Shown: positions 39,901 to 50,054 of the stretch, in pieces
How positions within the stretch are numbered: position 1 is the first letter of the stretch
How the letters are laid out: every line of letters starts with the position of its first letter
NCBI GenBank assembly: GCA_943787535.1
Contig: CALSMU010000008.1
Coordinates: forward strand, 1-64,000
DNA from: an uncultured Flavobacteriales bacterium
Lineage (GTDB): Bacteria; Bacteroidota; Bacteroidia; Flavobacteriales_D; Parvicellaceae
Direction of reading: 5' to 3'
Length of the DNA: 64,000 bases
Program-made: the position numbers and the translations under genes
The notes under the pieces: model-generated
Databases searched by the model: none
What the model was told of the DNA's origin: nothing
The model's input: the letters and a program-made list of their open reading frames with translations, nothing else

Positions 39901-40434
39901 GTGAAACCAATCAAAACATATTTACTATTTTTACCATTGTCTATCTCACATTTTTTTTTGGGTCAAAATAGTATGCTTACCCCAGAAGAGAAAGCAATTT
40001 TACACCACGTGGTAATTAAAAGTCCTGCACTAAACAGAAACCTTGGTGAATACTTTAAATACGCGGGTGATACAGTTTATTTCTTGTATAAAAGTAAAGG
40101 AGAGCAGCTGCGAGATTCAATAATTGATTATGATTCTATAGAGCAGGTTATCGTTTATGAACCTTCGTTGTTAGAGGTGAATTTTAATGAACTTAAAAAA
40201 GCTTCTCAAGGACTACTTTCTGAAGTAGCAACAAAAATGGCTTTACAAACTACTTATCGAGAGCTTAACAGGAGAGATGAAATAAAAAAAGAGGGAATAT
40301 CGGATAGCGTATATGTCAATTTTTTAAGAGAATTATCTACTAGTCTGCCGGATAAAGCAGTTCGAATAAAAAATGGTCAGCGTGATACCAATTTCGACGA
40401 TAATGAATGTTCTGGATCCAAATATTATTTTTAA
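39901..40434 (+). CDS. Exported hypothetical protein; probable N-terminal part of a frame-split gene
   Basis: GTG start; signal peptide (TYLLFLPLSISHFFLGQ); overlaps next ORF. Confidence 0.6.
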   Translation: MKPIKTYLLFLPLSISHFFLGQNSMLTPEEKAILHHVVIKSPALNRNLGEYFKYAGDTVYFLYKSKGEQLRDSIIDYDSIEQVIVYEPSLLEVNFNELKKASQGLLSEVATKMALQTTYRELNRRDEIKKEGISDSVYVNFLRELSTSLPDKAVRIKNGQRDTNFDDNECSGSKYYF

Positions 40435-42217
40435 TAATAGAGTGAAGGAATTAAATGAATTAAAGAATTTCAAGTTGGTTGAGCAACAAGAAATAGTCAA
40501 CGTTATTTCCGAATCAATACGAAAATTTATTCAGAACAAGTCGTATGAGTATTTTTTGAAAATAGGAGGTAAAAGTGGTTTTTACAAAAGTATTTTGTTA
40601 GCAGCCGGTGATGGAAGTGGAACAGCAGGTTTGCTGCATGAAAAAGAATTAATTAGGGGTAGAAGAAATAGTTTAGGGGTACCAAAAGGTGTGGGGTTAT
40701 TCACTTATGACACTAAAATAGTTTCTGGATATGAAAATATGCAGTCTATTGTGGCAAATCAGACTGCGGTAAGGGAGTTTGAAGCCATGAAAAATGGCTA
40801 TACAAATATTCACTTTAGCATTTGGGGTTTTAATTCTCGGCAGCAATCTACAGTGGTTGTAACTAGAGAAGGGCAGTCATATTTATTATATGCGTCGAAG
40901 CTTTCGAAAGAACTATCCCCTGATTCTGCGTTTGGAAATGGTCAAACTTTGCATACAAATATCAAAAGGTTGGAGTTTAAAAGTATTCCATTTGTAGACA
41001 ATGAAATTAATGGAGAGGAAGGATTAAAATACTGGGTAGAACACTATACAAAAGCATTGGACGAGAATCTATTGAAAATAAAGGAAACAGAATTTGAATT
41101 AGATAAAAATCGATATTCACAAAATAAAACCCAAAAGAAAACCACTTTGTTACAAGAAAGACTTTCGGCGTTGTATAATCGTAAACCCCAAATTGTAAAA
41201 CAATTGAAAAAAGCCAAAAAGGGATTAGCAATTGAAGAAGAGAGGTTGAAGCGATTTAGGTTTAGGCTTACAGAATTGAAAATGTTCAGGGGAGATTTTC
41301 AGGTAAAATATTCAAACTTTGGCTATGTTTACACGTATACGGATGGCTGTACTTTTAATGCATTTACGCAAAATTTTGTAATTCCCGATTCATTAAAATC
41401 TGAGGACTTTAAGGTACGGGTGATTACGATTGGCCCAGATGCTACTAGTGAACATGTAGATGAAGTGCAGTTACAAGTTGGTGTTACAACAGGGAAACCA
41501 GAAGATAAGTTGCCGAATGACTTTTATTTAGAATTTGAGGATGCATTTACTTCAGATCAATTTGAATTGGGTAGTTTTTCATTGAACCCCGTTGAATTGT
41601 ATGAAGTGAGTAAACAATTACACAGTAGTTATCTTCATGGAGGAGATGTTTATTTAGAGTTACTTGCAAACGGAATAGGTCAGGTAAGAGGAGGAGAACT
41701 AATTTCATCTTCGGCAAAGCAGCTAGATAATTATCCAGGGGATACCGATGAAGAAAAGATGGCCTCAAGAGAGTCACAAGAGTTTACCGAGCTCAGACGT
41801 GCATCCCTATCATTTAGAATGGAAAAAAATGATTTAGCCTTAACGATTAGCTCTTTTACTGATCCTGTCAAATCAAACTTTTCCAAAAAAAATATAGTGG
41901 CTAAACCTTTAAAAGAGAAATATTCTACACTATCAGAAAATGATTTATTGAGTGCGTTTCGAACTTTTTATATATGTGAAAGGTTTATGGGAGAATTATT
42001 ACGTGCTGTTTATTTTAATTTTGAAGGGAAAACGAAAACAAAAATGATGTCCTTGTTGAAACGTAAATTGGATAAGTCTGTAGTCAATGTTAAAAGCATA
42101 ACCATTGATTATGCCGAGTATTCAGACGTTGTTCATAATGATGTAGATTTTTTTTCTCATCTCTTAGAAAAGTTTAAAAAACAAAAGGAGCTAGAAAGTG
42201 CTATAATGGGAATTTAA
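40403..42217 (+). CDS. Hypothetical protein (ORF opens at 40373); probable C-terminal part of the same gene
   Basis: Long ORF without its own signal peptide; overlaps previous ORF in another frame. Confidence 0.6.
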   Translation: MNVLDPNIIFNNRVKELNELKNFKLVEQQEIVNVISESIRKFIQNKSYEYFLKIGGKSGFYKSILLAAGDGSGTAGLLHEKELIRGRRNSLGVPKGVGLFTYDTKIVSGYENMQSIVANQTAVREFEAMKNGYTNIHFSIWGFNSRQQSTVVVTREGQSYLLYASKLSKELSPDSAFGNGQTLHTNIKRLEFKSIPFVDNEINGEEGLKYWVEHYTKALDENLLKIKETEFELDKNRYSQNKTQKKTTLLQERLSALYNRKPQIVKQLKKAKKGLAIEEERLKRFRFRLTELKMFRGDFQVKYSNFGYVYTYTDGCTFNAFTQNFVIPDSLKSEDFKVRVITIGPDATSEHVDEVQLQVGVTTGKPEDKLPNDFYLEFEDAFTSDQFELGSFSLNPVELYEVSKQLHSSYLHGGDVYLELLANGIGQVRGGELISSSAKQLDNYPGDTDEEKMASRESQEFTELRRASLSFRMEKNDLALTISSFTDPVKSNFSKKNIVAKPLKEKYSTLSENDLLSAFRTFYICERFMGELLRAVYFNFEGKTKTKMMSLLKRKLDKSVVNVKSITIDYAEYSDVVHNDVDFFSHLLEKFKKQKELESAIMGI

Positions 42218-42285
42218 AAATAGCTTCTTTTTTTTGGGGATTGTAAAAATAACTAATCAGACTTTTTATTTTTTAAAATAATTAG

Positions 42286-42318
42286 TTGGGGAAAATGCTT
42301 ACATAGGAGTTAAATTTG
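42286..42318 (+). promoter_or_regulatory. Candidate Bacteroidota promoter of the ilv operon (TTG-N22-TAAATTTG)
   Basis: TTG at 42286-42288 and TAAATTTG at 42311-42318, within the known TTG-N17-23-TAnnTTTG pattern. Confidence 0.55.
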
Positions 42319-42327
42319 TGCTTTGAA

Positions 42328-42390
42328 ATGAAACAAAAAATAAACATATCACTACTTACAGTCATTATTATTTCTTCGCCATGTTGGTGA
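42328..42390 (+). CDS. ilv operon leader peptide MKQKINISLLTVIIISSPCW
   Basis: 20-codon ORF with 8 Ile/Leu/Val codons (ATA, ATA, CTA, CTT, GTC, ATT, ATT, ATT) directly upstream of a terminator and ilvE. Confidence 0.85.
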   Translation: MKQKINISLLTVIIISSPCW

Positions 42391-42449
42391 GATAGGAAGA
42401 ATATTGCATTAATATTTAAAGCCTTTCTCAACAGAAAGGCTTTTTTTTT
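42383..42449 (+). promoter_or_regulatory. Transcription attenuator: antiterminator arm 42383-42396 versus terminator stem 42418-42443
   Basis: GTTGGTGAGATAGG is near-complementary to CCTTTCTCAAC (42422-42432), the 5' arm and loop of the terminator. Confidence 0.75.
42418..42449 (+). terminator. Attenuator terminator upstream of ilvE
   Basis: AAAGCCTTTCT-caac-AGAAAGGCTTT followed by T run. Confidence 0.92.
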
Positions 42450-42478
42450 GAAAAAATAAATTACTAAACAATAACAAA

Positions 42479-43369
42479 ATGTATTACAACGACGAAACAA
42501 TAATCTATTTGGATGGTGAATGGTTAAAAGCCAAAGAAACATCTACGAGCCTTTATTCACAAACTTTACACTATGGGTCTGGAGTTTTTGAAGGCATTAG
42601 GTCGTATAAAACAGAAGATGGTGCGAAAGTTTTTAAAGCCAAAGAGCATTACGAAAGATTGCTCTATTCAGCTGAGAAAATGCATATCCAATTGCAATAT
42701 TCAGTGGAGGAATTAACAGCCCTTACCTATCAATTATTAGAAAAAAACAACTTGGAGAATGCTTATATCAGACCATTAGTTTACCTCGGTGAAAACATGG
42801 CCTTGCAGCCAACCGATGAGGTGCATGTAATGCTATCCGCTTGGGAATGGGGTAAATACTTAGGTGATTCTCAATTGCGTTTAATGACTTCTTCTTTTCA
42901 AAGACCAAACCCGAAATCATGTTTTGTTGAGGCAAAAGTAACGGGTCACTACACAAATTCGATTTTAGCAACCACTGAAGCAAAACAAAAAGGGTTCGAT
43001 GAAGCTTTGTTATTAGATATGCATGAAAACGTTGCTGAAGGTCCAGGAGCAAATTTCTTTTATGAAAAAGAGGGCAAGCTTTTTACCGCTCCAGTAGGAA
43101 ATATATTAAATGGAGTAACTAGACAAACTATATTTGAGCTAGCTGATGAGTTAGGTTTTGAATTGGAAGAGAAGTTTTTCACTCCCGAAGAAGTCTATGA
43201 TGCTGATGGTGCTTTCTTTACGGGTACTGCCGCAGAAGTTGCAGGTGTGGAAAGTTTAGATGGTCATAAATTTAATTTTAGTTGGGAAGACACGATGGGA
43301 TTCGATTTGGCAAATGCTTATCAAAATCGTGTAAGAAAGAAGGAATACAAACAATTTGAATTAGTCTAA
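42479..43369 (+). CDS. ilvE: Branched-chain amino acid aminotransferase
   Basis: [44 protein letters not shown]. Confidence 0.97.
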
Positions 43370-43370
43370 A

Positions 43371-45041
43371 ATGAACAGATTTAGCAAAAGAGTAACACAA
43401 GACGATTCCCAGCCAGCAGCTCAAGCTATGTTGCATGCAATAGGACTGACTGAAGAAGATTTTTCGAAAGCTTTTGTTGGGATTGCAAGCACTGGATATG
43501 AAGGAAATCCATGTAATATGCATTTAAATGATCTCGCCCAAAAGGTTAAGCAAGGCACGAAAAATGCAAATTTAGTAGGTTTGGTGTTTAATACAATTGG
43601 TGTTAGTGATGGAATTTCTATGGGAACCCCAGGTATGCGGTTTTCTCTTCCATCTAGAGATGTTATAGCAGATTCGATGGAGACAGTTGTTGAAGGAATG
43701 TCTTACGATGGTTTGGTAACGGTTGTTGGGTGTGATAAAAATATGCCGGGAGCATTAATGGCAATGATACGTTTAAATAGACCAAGTATATTGGTGTACG
43801 GTGGAACAATTGCTTCAGGTTGTCATAACGACAAGCCGCTAGATGTGGTTTCAGCATTTGAAGCATGGGGTCAAAAGGTTGCAGGAACGATTGATGATAA
43901 GGAATACAAAGAGGTGATTAAAAAAGCTTGTCCTGGCGCTGGTGCTTGCGGAGGAATGTACACTGCAAATACAATGGCATCAGCTATAGAAGCGCTTGGA
44001 ATGTCATTGCCTTATAATTCTTCTAATCCAGCTTTGAGTGCTGAAAAGAAAATGGAAAGTGTAAAGGCTGGAGAAGCTATGCGCTTGTTGTTAGAGAAAG
44101 ACATTAAGCCAAGTGATATAGTAACAAGGAAATCATTGGAAAATGCAATAAGACTTGTGACAGTTTTAGGTGGATCAACAAATGCTGTTTTACACTTCCT
44201 CGCTATTGCTAAAGCCGCTGACATAGAATTTGAATTGGATGATTTTCAAAGAATATCTAATACTACGCCCTTTTTAGCAGACTTAAAACCAAGTGGTGAA
44301 TTTTTAATGGAGAATGTTCATCAAGTCGGAGGAATTCCTGCGGTATTAAAGTTCTTGTTGGAAAAAGGGATGTTGCATGGTGATTGTTTAACGGTAACAG
44401 GGAAAACATTAGCAGAAAACCTTGATGCTGTTCCTGGTTTGCTGGATGGTCAAAAAGTAATACGACCAATAGAAAATCCAATAAAACCAACAGGTCATTT
44501 ACGTGTATTAAAAGGAAATATTTCTCCTAAAGGAGCTGTAGCAAAAATAACAGGAAAAGAAGGGTTGGAGTTCACAGGAGCAGCGCGAGTTTTTAATTCC
44601 GAGTATGAAGCTACCGATGGAATTCGAAACGGTGAGGTTCAAAAAGGAGATGTTGTTGTGATTCGTTATGAAGGTCCCAAAGGTGGACCTGGAATGCCGG
44701 AAATGTTAAAGCCAACTGCTGCTATAATAGGCGCTGGTTTAGGTAATCATGTTGCATTGATAACGGATGGTAGGTTTTCTGGTGGTTCTCACGGGTTTGT
44801 CGTTGGGCATGTATCTCCAGAAGCGCAAGATGGAGGTCCTATTGCATTGCTCGAAAATGGAGATATTATTACCATAAATGCGGTTGAAAACACAATAAAT
44901 ATGGATGTTTCTGATGAAGAATTAACAACAAGAAAGGGTAAATGGAAAGCTCCCCAATTAAAGTTTAAAAAAGGAGTTATGTATAAATATGCTAAAACCG
45001 TTTCTTGTGCTTCAGAAGGTTGCGTTACAGATGAATTTTAA
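43371..45041 (+). CDS. ilvD: Dihydroxy-acid dehydratase
   Basis: [41 protein letters not shown]. Confidence 0.99.
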
Positions 45042-45042
45042 A

Positions 45043-46776
45043 ATGAATGACATGGATACTATTGAAGTTAAAGATACAATGCCGAAACAAGGTTTAATGA
45101 CTGGTTCACAAGCAGTAGTTCAATCAATAATTGCTGAAGGTGTGAATTTAATGTTTGGATATCCAGGTGGTGCTATTATGCCAGTTTATGATGCATTATA
45201 TGATGTTGAACAGGAACTAACACATGTGTTAGCAAGACATGAACAAGGTGCGGTGCATGCAGCTCAAGGATATGCCAGAGCAACAGGAAAGGTTGGTGTT
45301 TGTATTGCAACTTCGGGTCCAGGAGCAACCAATTTGATAACCGGAATAGCGGATGCGCAAATTGATTCAACTCCTTTGGTTTGCATAACAGGTCAAGTTG
45401 CGAGTCATTTATTAGGGACAGACGCTTTTCAAGAAACGGATGTTGTTGGGATTTCAATGCCCGTGACCAAATGGAATTTTCAAGTTACTAGGGCAGAAGA
45501 AATACCAATGGCAATAGCGAAGGCATTTTACATAGCACGTTCTGGAAAACCAGGTCCAGTATTGGTCGATATAACGAAAGATGCGCAGTTTGAAGAGGTA
45601 GATTTTAACTATGTTCCATTCACTGGTATGAGAAGCTACCGCCCTAAACCAAAATTAGACTTGGATTCGGTAAAAGCAGCAGCGAATTTAATCAATAGTG
45701 CTAAACGTCCATTTATATTATTTGGTCAAGGAATAATCTTATCCAAAGCTGAGAAAGAATTTAAATCTTTTATCGAAAAAACTGGGATACCTTCTGCTTG
45801 GACAATACTAGGACTATCCGCACTTGAATCGGATCACTATTTAAATGTTGGAATGTTAGGAATGCATGGAAACTATGCGCCCAATAAACTCACCAACGAA
45901 TGTGACGTTTTGATAGCGATTGGGATGCGTTTCGATGATAGAATAACAGGTGATTTAAGCCGGTATGCAAAGCAAGCAAAAGTTGTACATATAGAAATAG
46001 ATCCGTCAGAGGTTAGTAAAAATGTGCATGCAAATATCCCTGTTATTGCGGATGCCAAAGAAGCATTGTTGGAATTATCTAAAATAGTAGATGAAAAAAC
46101 ACATCCAGATTGGCTGCAGAAATTTAGAGATTTAGAAATGGAAGAGTATGAATTGGTAATAGGAAATGAGCTTTACCCATCAACAGAAAAACTTACGATG
46201 GGTGAAGTGATAAATGAAATAAATATTCAGTCCGATCATAATAATATTATAGTAACAGACGTAGGGCAGCATCAAATGATGTCTTGCAGATATTTTAAAT
46301 TCCAACAAACCAAATCGATGATAACTTCCGGCGGTTTAGGTACTATGGGGTTTTGTTTGCCAGCTGCGATTGGAGCAAAAATGGGACAACCAAATAAACA
46401 GGTGATTGCTGTTATTGGTGATGGTGGTTTTCAGATGACGCTTCAGGAATTAGGAACCATGTTTCAATATGGTGTTGATGTCAAAATAGTAGTTCTGAAT
46501 AATGAGTTTCTGGGAATGGTTAGGCAATGGCAAGAGATGTTTTTTGAAAAGCGATATGCATCAACAACTATGGTTAATCCTGATTTTCAGAGGATTGTTT
46601 CGGGATATGGTATAGCAACTAAAAAGGTAGTAAAACGAGAGGAATTAGCTGATGCAATTAAGGAAATGTTAAATCATAAAGGAGCCTATTTTTTAGAGGC
46701 AATAGTTGGCAAAGAGAATAATGTTTTTCCAATGGTGCCAACGGGAGCTTCAGTGAGCGAGATAAGACTAAAGTAA
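45043..46776 (+). CDS. ilvB: Acetolactate synthase large subunit (ORF opens at 44989; start chosen at MNDMDT)
   Basis: FGYPGGAIMPVYDALYD; GDGGFQMTLQELGTMFQYGVDVKIVVLNN TPP motif. Confidence 0.97.
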   Translation: MNDMDTIEVKDTMPKQGLMTGSQAVVQSIIAEGVNLMFGYPGGAIMPVYDALYDVEQELTHVLARHEQGAVHAAQGYARATGKVGVCIATSGPGATNLITGIADAQIDSTPLVCITGQVASHLLGTDAFQETDVVGISMPVTKWNFQVTRAEEIPMAIAKAFYIARSGKPGPVLVDITKDAQFEEVDFNYVPFTGMRSYRPKPKLDLDSVKAAANLINSAKRPFILFGQGIILSKAEKEFKSFIEKTGIPSAWTILGLSALESDHYLNVGMLGMHGNYAPNKLTNECDVLIAIGMRFDDRITGDLSRYAKQAKVVHIEIDPSEVSKNVHANIPVIADAKEALLELSKIVDEKTHPDWLQKFRDLEMEEYELVIGNELYPSTEKLTMGEVINEINIQSDHNNIIVTDVGQHQMMSCRYFKFQQTKSMITSGGLGTMGFCLPAAIGAKMGQPNKQVIAVIGDGGFQMTLQELGTMFQYGVDVKIVVLNNEFLGMVRQWQEMFFEKRYASTTMVNPDFQRIVSGYGIATKKVVKREELADAIKEMLNHKGAYFLEAIVGKENNVFPMVPTGASVSEIRLK

Positions 46777-46777
46777 A

Positions 46778-47311
46778 ATGAAAAAAGAAAGATATACAAT
46801 ATCGGTTTTTACCGAAGATATTGTCGGTATGCTTAACAGAGTAACAATAATATTTACTCGAAGGAAAATAAATATTGATAGTATTGCAGCATCAGAAAGT
46901 GAAATAGCTAATATTCATCGCTATACACTTGTAATAAGTGAAGCTGAAGACATGGTTAAGAAGGTTGTTCTTCAACTTGAAAAACAAGTTGAGGTTGTTA
47001 AGGCGGTTTATCACAAAGATTCCGAGGTGGTTTATCAGGAAATAGCCTTATACAAAGTGCCTACTGAAGTGCTTTTATCGGGTGGCGAGGCTGAGAAAAT
47101 AGTGAGAGCGCATCATGCTAGAGTTTTGTCGGTTGAACCTGCATTTACGGTTATTGAAAAAACGGGACACAAGGAGGAAACACAAGCACTATTTAATCAG
47201 TTAGAGCCCTATGGAATGCTGGAGTTTGTTAGGTCAGGAAGAGTGGCTATTACCAAGCCAATGAAAACGTTGAAGTCAATAGTTGAAGAATTAGAAAAAG
47301 TACAATATTAA
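46778..47311 (+). CDS. ilvN: Acetolactate synthase small subunit
   Basis: ACT domain YTISVFTEDIVGMLNRVTIIFTRRKINIDSI. Confidence 0.95.
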   Translation: MKKERYTISVFTEDIVGMLNRVTIIFTRRKINIDSIAASESEIANIHRYTLVISEAEDMVKKVVLQLEKQVEVVKAVYHKDSEVVYQEIALYKVPTEVLLSGGEAEKIVRAHHARVLSVEPAFTVIEKTGHKEETQALFNQLEPYGMLEFVRSGRVAITKPMKTLKSIVEELEKVQY

Positions 47312-47323
47312 AAAATACAAGCA

Positions 47324-48799
47324 ATGGAAAATTATTACAATTCGCTATCACGAGAAGACCAACTTTTGCAGCTTGGAAAATGTGATTTTATGGACAGTGC
47401 CGACTTTGTTAATGGAGTTGAAAAACTTAAAAACAAAAATGTGGTCATAGTTGGATGTGGAGCGCAGGGATTAAATCAGGGGTTAAACATGAGAGATTCA
47501 GGATTAAAAGTTTCTTATGCATTGAGAAAAGAGGCAATTGAAACCAAGAGACAATCATACTTGAATGCGGTTAATAATGAATTTGAACTTGGTACTTACC
47601 AAGAAATGATTCCAACTGCGGATTTGGTAATTAATTTAACCCCGGATAAACAACACACCGATGTGGTCAAAAATATAATGCCATTCATGAAATTTGGAGC
47701 TACTTTATCCTATTCTCATGGGTTTAATATTGTTGAAGAAGGAATGAAGATTCGTAAAGATCTAACGGTTATCATGATGGCACCTAAATCTCCCGGTTCG
47801 GAGGTCAGAGAAGAGTATAAAAGAGGGTTTGGTGTTCCTACTTTAATAGCAGTTCACCCAGAAAACAATCCAAATGGCGATGGTTTGGAAATTGCAAAAG
47901 CTTATGCCGTTGCGACTGGAGGACATATGGCAGGAGTTTTAAACTCATCGTTTGTAGCTGAGGTTAAATCTGATTTAATGGGTGAGCAGACTATACTTTG
48001 TGGTGTCCTTCAAACAGGTTCAATTCTTTATTTTGATAAAATGATTGAAAATGGGATAGATCCGGGATATGCGGCCAAATTAGTTCAATATGGATGGGAA
48101 GCTATAACGGAAGAATTGAAGCATGGTGGTTTAACACAAATGATGAATAGATTGAATGGGGCTTCGAAAGTAAAAACCAATGAGTTGGCAAATGAATTAA
48201 AGACCCTGATGAAGCCTTTGTTTGAAAAACATATGAAAGATATTTTATCAGGAGATTTCTCTTTAATGATGATGAAAGATTGGAAGAATAATGACGCCGA
48301 ATTATTAACCTGGAGGAGGGAAACGGGAGAAACAGCATTTGAAAAAGCCGTTGAAACCAACGAAAATATTGCTAATCAGGAGTTTTTTGATAAAGGTTTA
48401 TTAATGGTTGCATTTACCAAAGCAGGAGTTGAATTGGCATTCGAAACAATGATAGAAAATGGAATAAAGGCGGAGTCTGCATATTATGAATCTTTGCACG
48501 AGGCGCCTTTAATTGCAAATACAATAGCCCGTAAAAAATTGTATGAAATGAATCGGGTAATATCCGATACTGCAGAATATGGTTGTTATCTTTTTAATCA
48601 TGCGTGTAAACCTTTACTAAAAGATTTTATGTCATCCGTGGATTTAGGCCTAATCGGTCAGCCATTTTTTGATTCAAAATACAATGATCCCGTTAAAATA
48701 AATGAATTAGACAATGAGTTAAAAAACCATCCAATAGAAAAAGTTGGCGCTTTACTCAGGTTGTCAATGACGGAAATGAAAAAATTGGAATTAAATTAG
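47324..48799 (+). CDS. ilvC: Ketol-acid reductoisomerase (long form)
   Basis: [62 protein letters not shown]. Confidence 0.98.
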
Positions 48800-48803
48800 T
48801 AGA

Positions 48804-50054
48804 ATGAGGGCACAAGTTAGGTTAGAAAATGTAAAAAAAGCAGCATTGCTTTTAAATGATGTTGCCTTGAAAACACCTTTAATGCGGAATGAAAATTTAG
48901 CGCAACAATTTGAATCTAATATTGTATTAAAACGAGAAGATTTACAGCAAGTTAGGTCCTATAAAATAAGAGGGGCCTATAACAAAATTGCTTCTTTAAC
49001 AGAGAGTGAACTAAAGCAAGGAGTTGTTTGTGCAAGTGCTGGTAATCATGCGCAAGGGGTTGCTTTTTCTTGCTTTAAGCTAAAAGTAAAAGGGGTTGTT
49101 TTCATGCCGACTCCGACACCAAAACAGAAGATTGAACAAGTGAAAATGTTTGGTGGTGCGTTTATAGAAATAGTAATAGTAGGTGATACGTTTGACGATG
49201 CTTACGTTTGTGCAAATCAATATTGCGCAGATAATAAGATGACATTTGTACATCCGTTTGATGATGAAAAGGTAATTGAAGGTCAAGCGACAATTGCTTT
49301 GGAGATTTTAGAGCAATCCAAAAATGAGATTGATTATTTATTTGTGCCTGTTGGAGGTGGGGGAGTTGCTTCTGGCATCTCCTCTATATTTAATGAGCTA
49401 TCGCCAAATACAAAAGTTATAGGAGTTGAACCGTATGGTGCTCCCTCCATGTCCACTTCTTTGGAAAAGGGGGTTAATATTAAATTAGATTACATTGATA
49501 AATTTATTGATGGAGCCTCAGTTCAAAGAGTAGGAGATTTGAATTTTGATCTTTGTCAGCAGTATTTGTCTAGTATGTCTTGTGTAAAGGAAGGAGAGGT
49601 GTGTCAAACGATACTAGACTTATATAATAAAGAAGCAATTGTTGTGGAGCCAGCAGGAGCCCTTTCAATAGCTGTTTTGAATCAGTTTAAAGATGAAATA
49701 CGCGGAAAGAATGTTGTTTGCTTAGTTAGTGGAAGTAATAACGATATTACGCGAACCGAGGAGATAAAAGAAAGAGCTCTTTTGCATGCAAATTTGAAAC
49801 ACTATTTCATAATCAGTTTTCCACAAAGAGCGGGAGCATTGAAAGAATTTGTGGCAGATATATTAGGACCAAATGATGATATTACACATTTTGAGTATAC
49901 AAAAAAACATAACCGTAATATGGGTCCAGCTGTGGTTGGGGTTGAACTTCAAAATCCTTCAACACTTAAAGCGCTGGAGAAAAGAATGAAAGACAGAGGC
50001 TTTTTTGGAGAATACTTGAATGATAACCCAGATTTATTTCAGTTTTTGGTTTAG
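48804..50054 (+). CDS. ilvA: Threonine ammonia-lyase
   Basis: REDLQQVRSYKIRGAYNKI PLP lysine motif; CASAGNHAQGVAFSC; ACT-like C-term. Confidence 0.97.
   Translation: MRAQVRLENVKKAALLLNDVALKTPLMRNENLAQQFESNIVLKREDLQQVRSYKIRGAYNKIASLTESELKQGVVCASAGNHAQGVAFSCFKLKVKGVVFMPTPTPKQKIEQVKMFGGAFIEIVIVGDTFDDAYVCANQYCADNKMTFVHPFDDEKVIEGQATIALEILEQSKNEIDYLFVPVGGGGVASGISSIFNELSPNTKVIGVEPYGAPSMSTSLEKGVNIKLDYIDKFIDGASVQRVGDLNFDLCQQYLSSMSCVKEGEVCQTILDLYNKEAIVVEPAGALSIAVLNQFKDEIRGKNVVCLVSGSNNDITRTEEIKERALLHANLKHYFIISFPQRAGALKEFVADILGPNDDITHFEYTKKHNRNMGPAVVGVELQNPSTLKALEKRMKDRGFFGEYLNDNPDLFQFLV

Follow-up and report, generated by a model that had tools for sequence, protein, structure and literature searches.

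The window, a 64,000-nucleotide stretch of DNA from an uncultured Flavobacteriales bacterium, carries an operon with the gene order ilvE-ilvD-ilvB-ilvN-ilvC-ilvA. All six genes scored above an NCBIfam cut-off:

42479–43369, + strand: ilvE, branched-chain aminotransferase, first gene of the operon (TIGR01122)
43371–45041, + strand: ilvD, dihydroxy-acid dehydratase (TIGR00110)
44989–46776, + strand: ilvB, acetolactate synthase large subunit (TIGR00118)
46778–47311, + strand: ilvN, acetolactate synthase small subunit (TIGR00119)
47324–48799, + strand: ilvC, ketol-acid reductoisomerase, 491 aa form (NF003557)
48804–50054, + strand: ilvA, threonine ammonia-lyase (TIGR02079)

The true start of ilvB is probably later than the start of the listed open reading frame, which overlaps ilvD. 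The window's genome yielded no leuA that passed the cut-off, and the operon therefore probably serves isoleucine and valine. Upstream of the operon there are a 177-aa ORF (39901–40434) and a 614-aa ORF (40373–42217), both without an NCBIfam match. The following features lie between the 614-aa ORF and ilvE:

42257–42274, + strand: TCAGACTTTTTATTTTTT element, about 40–60 nt 5′ of the −7 box, shared by members of the window's genus and family
42286–42288, + strand: −33-like TTG, a weak motif
42311–42318, + strand: −7 box TAAATTTG, matching the TAnnTTTG sigma-A promoter of Bacteroidota
42323–42324, + strand: predicted transcription start, placed 4–5 nt after the −7 box by the spacing of PMC6847099
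42328–42390, + strand: leader peptide ORF of 20 codons, with its TGA stop at 42388–42390
42375–42391, + strand: protector (1:2) hairpin, −6.9 kcal/mol
42388–42396, + strand: region 2, the antiterminator 5′ arm, which includes the UGA stop (pairing tests)
42399–42417, + strand: small AATATT hairpin, inside the antiterminator
42422–42430, + strand: region 3, terminator 5′ arm and loop and antiterminator 3′ arm
42418–42449, + strand: intrinsic terminator, 11-bp stem and T9 (fold and compensatory changes)

The leader translates as MKQKINISLLTVIIISSPCW, with the residues PCW directly before the UGA. The terminator stem is formed by 42418–42428 and 42433–42443 around a CAAC loop, the T-run occupies 42441–42449, and the ilvE ATG (42479) lies 29 nt past the end of the T-run. 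The best antiterminator pairing joins UGAGA-u-AGG (42388–42396) to CCU-u-UCUCA (42422–42430) at −10.4 kcal/mol, with region 2 starting exactly at the leader UGA. An earlier note on this DNA had described the 20-residue leader, the terminator and its T9 run, and a small AATATT hairpin enclosed by the antiterminator. Each of these was recovered, the hairpin when the 3′ terminator arm was withheld in folding, and the positions given there for the leader ORF, the terminator and the promoter elements agree with the sequence. The protector hairpin had been missed at that first reading.

Among near relatives, a leader in the form of an ILV-rich micro-ORF and a terminator were found at all nine of the full-length IlvE orthologs. 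In one close relative (L048, G002:C7), ilvE is split over two frames, possibly by a frameshift or an assembly error. When GTDB genomes were scanned more widely, 80 named loci were obtained, almost all of them from Bacteroidota, and the addition of the window brought the set to 81 ilvE loci. At least one leader-terminator unit, chained next to ilvE, was present in 74 of these; no unit was found at the other seven, some of which are truncated or start at another gene. An ILV-rich ORF ended within 75 nt upstream of 80 of the 108 terminators located no more than 300 nt from ilvE, compared with a baseline of 9 of 123 for the other terminators of the same loci. Relatives conserve the codons of the leader, both the terminator and the antiterminator, the spacing of the promoter and the position of the element, so the main refuting condition of the earlier note, a lack of conservation, did not hold.

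The codon content of the leaders is dominated by isoleucine. When the final 18 residues are counted in 117 leaders, 31% are Ile, 12% Val and 7% Leu, and the dominant codon is ATT, which suggests that the attenuator signal is mainly isoleucine. Leucine was rejected as the main signal, given the few Leu codons and the lack of a leuA above cut-off in the window's genome. The earlier note had drawn attention to branched-chain codons that included ATA and CTA; the richness in Ile and Val codons is kept across the family, whereas ATA and CTA are not part of what is conserved. The C-terminal leader residues vary (PCW, SLW, SLE, PME, PHG, PPG, PLRL and others).

The median distance from the leader stop to the hairpin is 26 nt, and in 90% of units region 2 falls within about −18 to +15 of the stop codon. 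Two or more Ile, Leu or Val codons lie at least 13 nt upstream of region 2 in each of the units tested. Judged from these sequence positions and an assumed ribosome footprint, region 2 would be clear during a stall at the control codons and covered by a ribosome at the stop. The overlap between antiterminator and leader stop that the earlier note had singled out is thus present, but it is not unusual, as the classical trp/ilv mechanism needs it.

We examined each of the helices separately. The fold of 42376–42452, taken from the window alone, beat 200 of 200 shuffles (z −3.3). For the window antiterminator alone, the stop region was shuffled 2000 times with its dinucleotides preserved, and 159 of these shuffles paired as well (p about 0.08), so the window is by itself no proof of an antiterminator and the proof is supplied by the comparative tests. 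For the terminator (3:4), there were 34 compensatory cells against 7.6 in shuffles, with none of 500 shuffles reaching as high. For the antiterminator (2:3), region 2 paired with its own arm at −12.6 kcal/mol and with permuted arms at −8.3 kcal/mol over 72 non-redundant units, a difference not matched in any of 5000 permutations, while two control segments (the leader codons and the stretch past the T-run) showed no preference for their own arm in the same test. At tandem loci, the cognate antiterminator beat the swapped one 40 times, lost twice and tied once. The protector (1:2) gave −4.8 kcal/mol for cognate and −3.1 kcal/mol for permuted pairings (66 units; 0/5000). In a fixed alignment register, the antiterminator showed no covariation excess (paired 65%, against 62% in shuffles) because the positions of mismatches and bulges shift between lineages; its support comes from the register-free cognate and permuted tests with their two negative control segments. 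These tests point to a mutually exclusive antiterminator that shares the terminator 5′ arm, and the pairing at the leader stop region proposed in the earlier note is upheld by the comparison.

The candidate promoter that the earlier note had placed just before the leader (TTG-N22-TAAATTTG) lies at the stated position. The TTG and TAAATTTG are separated by 22 nt, and TAAATTTG ends 9 nt before the leader ATG. A full TAnnTTTG box lies no more than 45 nt from the ATG in 43 of 73 first leaders, compared with 1 of 43 downstream leaders, and the 29 nt between the window's terminator and ilvE contain no TAHHTTTG. In Flavobacterium johnsoniae, the last G of the −7 box is at −5 and the start site is 4 or 5 nt further on (PMC6847099). 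From this published spacing, the 5′ UTR in the window is predicted to be 4–5 nt. The gap between box and ATG is 4 nt in nine first leaders, all from Chryseobacterium, for which the same spacing predicts a 5′ UTR of 0 nt. First leaders of this kind are unusually close to the 5′ end, since 87% of mRNA leaders in F. johnsoniae are longer than 10 nt (PMC6847099) and 5.5% of mRNAs in F. psychrophilum are leaderless (PMC9723704). A near-leaderless start is not obligatory in the family: gaps between box and ATG are longer at other loci, and the predicted 5′ UTR of a hisG leader in the window's genome is about 11 nt. The nearly leaderless mRNA of the earlier note is supported for the window by the published −7 box spacing, but it is not a family-wide rule.

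Upstream of the promoter, the TCAGACYTTTTATTTTTT element (42257–42274) is also found in L008, L012, L013, L014, L035, L036 and L048. It is restricted to the window's genus and family and is a possible activator site. As a genome-wide site, TCAGACYTTTTA was rejected: there are five exact copies, two of which are one duplicated sequence, and counts with up to one mismatch were not in excess (57, against 76 in a reversed control).

Further leaders were sought with a covariance model built on the attenuator unit (R1). In the window's genome, R1 recovered the window element at 1.3e-11 together with two other leaders. One is a His-codon leader, MNLKKLHHHHFYNCSQASGK, with a terminator before hisG (G000:C21:85712-85827, L154); the other is a Phe/Tyr-codon leader, MKKFTIYTERFYFNY, with a terminator before pheA (G000:C2:130890-130996, L156). 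In both cases the leader codons fit the operon, hisG and pheA having been named by eye from sequence. Across 299 genomes of the phylum, 81 had a match at E 0.01. Among the best 29 loci in other genomes, 23 were positioned before ilvE (9), ilvD (10) or an ilvN-type gene (4), where one of the ilvD loci has about 800 nt between match and gene and two of the ilvN-type genes were judged by eye. The matches include ilvD-first operons, which were outside the training set. Two near relatives (L127 and L136) have such an operon, and the L127 leader, MKIRKNIIIIISNIIINGSN, starts 7 nt past TAGATTTG. In three genomes of the same class (L163, L166 and L168), a separate ilvN-type gene, accompanied by ilvA in L168, has its own Ile-rich attenuator, some of these being tandem. 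A leader at about 1482–1535 of the reversed locus L188, MNPTPRTYIHHSHYYLQ, is followed by a terminator before a phenylalanine 4-hydroxylase-like gene and may sense tyrosine. Weak R1 matches at L155, L157, L158, L175, L176, L180, L186 and L187 had no matching leader and were treated as chance.

No Rfam family (Rfam 15) matched the window element at its gathering threshold. This includes the Leu, His, Trp, Thr and Phe leader families, with Phe_leader reaching 31 bits where 55 are needed, as well as T-box and riboswitch families with a specifier or aptamer domain. The best sub-threshold matches were to sRNA and leader models and reflect mainly the common terminator shape.

Taken together, these comparisons make it very probable that the window element is a classical ribosome-mediated attenuator through which ilvEDBNCA responds to charged tRNA-Ile (and tRNA-Val). 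A simpler account would make the hairpin a mere terminator of the 614-aa gene and the ILV-rich ORF a chance product of AT-rich DNA, in which many Ile codons of the form ATT are indeed expected; the gene is on the same strand and ends 200 nt upstream. Chance of this kind does not predict the concentration of ILV-rich ORFs at the terminators near ilvE relative to those elsewhere in the same loci, nor the helix-specific pairing of antiterminator and protector, nor the occurrence of His codons in the leader of hisG and of Phe/Tyr codons in that of pheA. In addition, a promoter stands between the upstream gene and the leader. We regard this account as refuted by the conservation and as very unlikely to be correct.

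The location of region 2 at the stop, and the PCW with which the window leader ends, would also suit a TnaC-like nascent-peptide arrest, in which the leader sequence stalls the ribosome for a free small molecule rather than an uncharged tRNA. We rejected this, with a probability that we judge to be equally slight, because the C-terminal residues of the leaders vary whereas the Ile and Val codons are conserved; a stall at the stop would, moreover, hide region 2. Control of the terminator by a ligand-binding riboswitch or a tRNA-binding T-box, with the ORF incidental, is slightly less probable again. The leader is structured and has a terminator, but no such family appeared at gathering threshold in Rfam, the approximately 26 nt between stop and hairpin are too short for a known aptamer, and what is conserved are codons and arms positioned relative to the stop.

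The ribosome-mediated attenuation proposed in the earlier note is thus supported by conserved anatomy and helix-specific pairing, and from the comparison we infer its function: the start site, leader translation, stalling and termination. The transcript would start only some nucleotides ahead of the leader AUG. Under shortage of Ile or Val, the leading ribosome would stall at the VIII codons, 13 nt or more short of region 2, leaving region 2 to pair with region 3 as the antiterminator and RNA polymerase to read into ilvE. When both are plentiful, a ribosome at the UGA would cover region 2, and regions 3 and 4 would form the terminator. If the leader is untranslated, the protector hairpin would hide region 2 and the terminator would form too.

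In at least 42 of the 81 loci, two or more complete units are arranged in series before ilvE (e.g. L076, L080, L041, L040, L047, L062, L070, L082, L088 and others), with three units in L076 and L080. The distance from a hairpin to the next leader ATG has a median of 30 nt, and no TAHHTTTG box was found between serial units in 43 pairs. With gaps this short and no strict box between them, the tandem units look like checkpoints on one transcript. In L036, TAGATTTG occurs just before the second leader, a form outside the strict TAHHTTTG pattern. The last two units of L076 and L080 are near-copies, pointing to recent duplication. In L083, the leader of the last copy is without its usual stop codon. 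These arrays lie in relatives and were thus outside the view of the earlier note, which was based on the window's letters.

Two members of the window's genus, L035 and L036, have an extra upstream unit (leaders MKNANIISIINHRQ and MRKTNSISIFKVFIISPSF). A TAAATTTT or TAAATTTG box stands in front of it, and the second units retain a promoter of their own. In both loci, the homologue of the 614-aa gene ends a short way ahead of this upstream attenuator. The upstream unit is missing from the window and L048, and the breakpoint falls between AATAACT and AATCAGACT. Two units are present in the more distant relatives L038–L041 and L047, so it is simpler to assume a loss in the lineage of the window, whose one unit appears to be what is left of a pair still present in close relatives, the upstream unit having been deleted. 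On balance, we lean towards the view that Ile/Val control in Bacteroidota is commonly exerted by serial ribosome-mediated attenuators, two or three of them, each complete and self-consistent, on a single leaderless or near-leaderless transcript. Their read-through probabilities would multiply to give a steeper response to Ile/Val shortage than a lone attenuator could, and the window would be a one-unit remnant after deletion.

Ribosome-mediated attenuation of ilv operons is textbook knowledge, and Bacteroidetes/Chlorobi are said to be mentioned in the comparative study of Vitreschak and colleagues from 2004. The Escherichia coli ilvGMEDA, ilvBN and trp attenuators resemble the window element in having a leader of product codons, a 1:2 protector, a 2:3 antiterminator and a 3:4 terminator, in the covering of region 2 by a ribosome at the leader stop, and in an Ile/Val run followed by Pro/Cys codons. 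They differ in that the window's leader start is without a Shine-Dalgarno sequence, lies nearly at the 5′ end and is served by a Bacteroidota-type promoter; Bacteroidota leaders are also Ile-dominated, with Leu minor, and have the stop inside or beside region 2. Tandem T-boxes, such as those of Bacillus subtilis thrZ, likewise place several terminators that answer to one signal ahead of a single gene, but there the tRNA is sensed directly without a ribosome.

In F. psychrophilum, leader-peptide attenuation was suspected in 2021, on strong clues, before amino-acid operons, with structured 5′ elements at pheA and hisG (PMC9723704), the same two genes at which the window's genome has leaders. The main text of that paper names no ilv element, antiterminator test or tandem units. 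In Salmonella mgtCBR, called a singular example in 2012, a single mRNA also carries a pair of leader ORFs and a pair of serial attenuators (PMC3641672), but these respond to two different signals, ATP and proline, whereas the Bacteroidota arrays carry Ile/Val codons in all units. A branched-chain leader before an ilv operon outside Proteobacteria is described for Corynebacterium (the ilvBNC uORF attenuator or ilvB-II motif; PMC10272879, PMC11857589), in a different phylum from the window's. Our search, which covered mainly open-access literature, found no paper on branched-chain or tandem same-signal attenuators in Bacteroidota. Thus the kind of system is known and flavobacterial attenuation was already suspected; what is new is a family with leaderless or near-leaderless first leaders and serial arrays.

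The comparative tests therefore indicate a textbook four-segment attenuator in a phylum without Shine-Dalgarno use. As the first leader often has little or no 5′ UTR, ribosome loading would be timed differently from that in E. coli. Micro-ORFs that stand unlabelled in front of ilv, his and phe operons can also be annotated on this basis. Finally, the relatives have one, two or three attenuators for the same signal in front of this operon, a natural series in which the benefit of repeated termination checkpoints (gain, tightness or Ile/Val AND-logic) can be tested directly.
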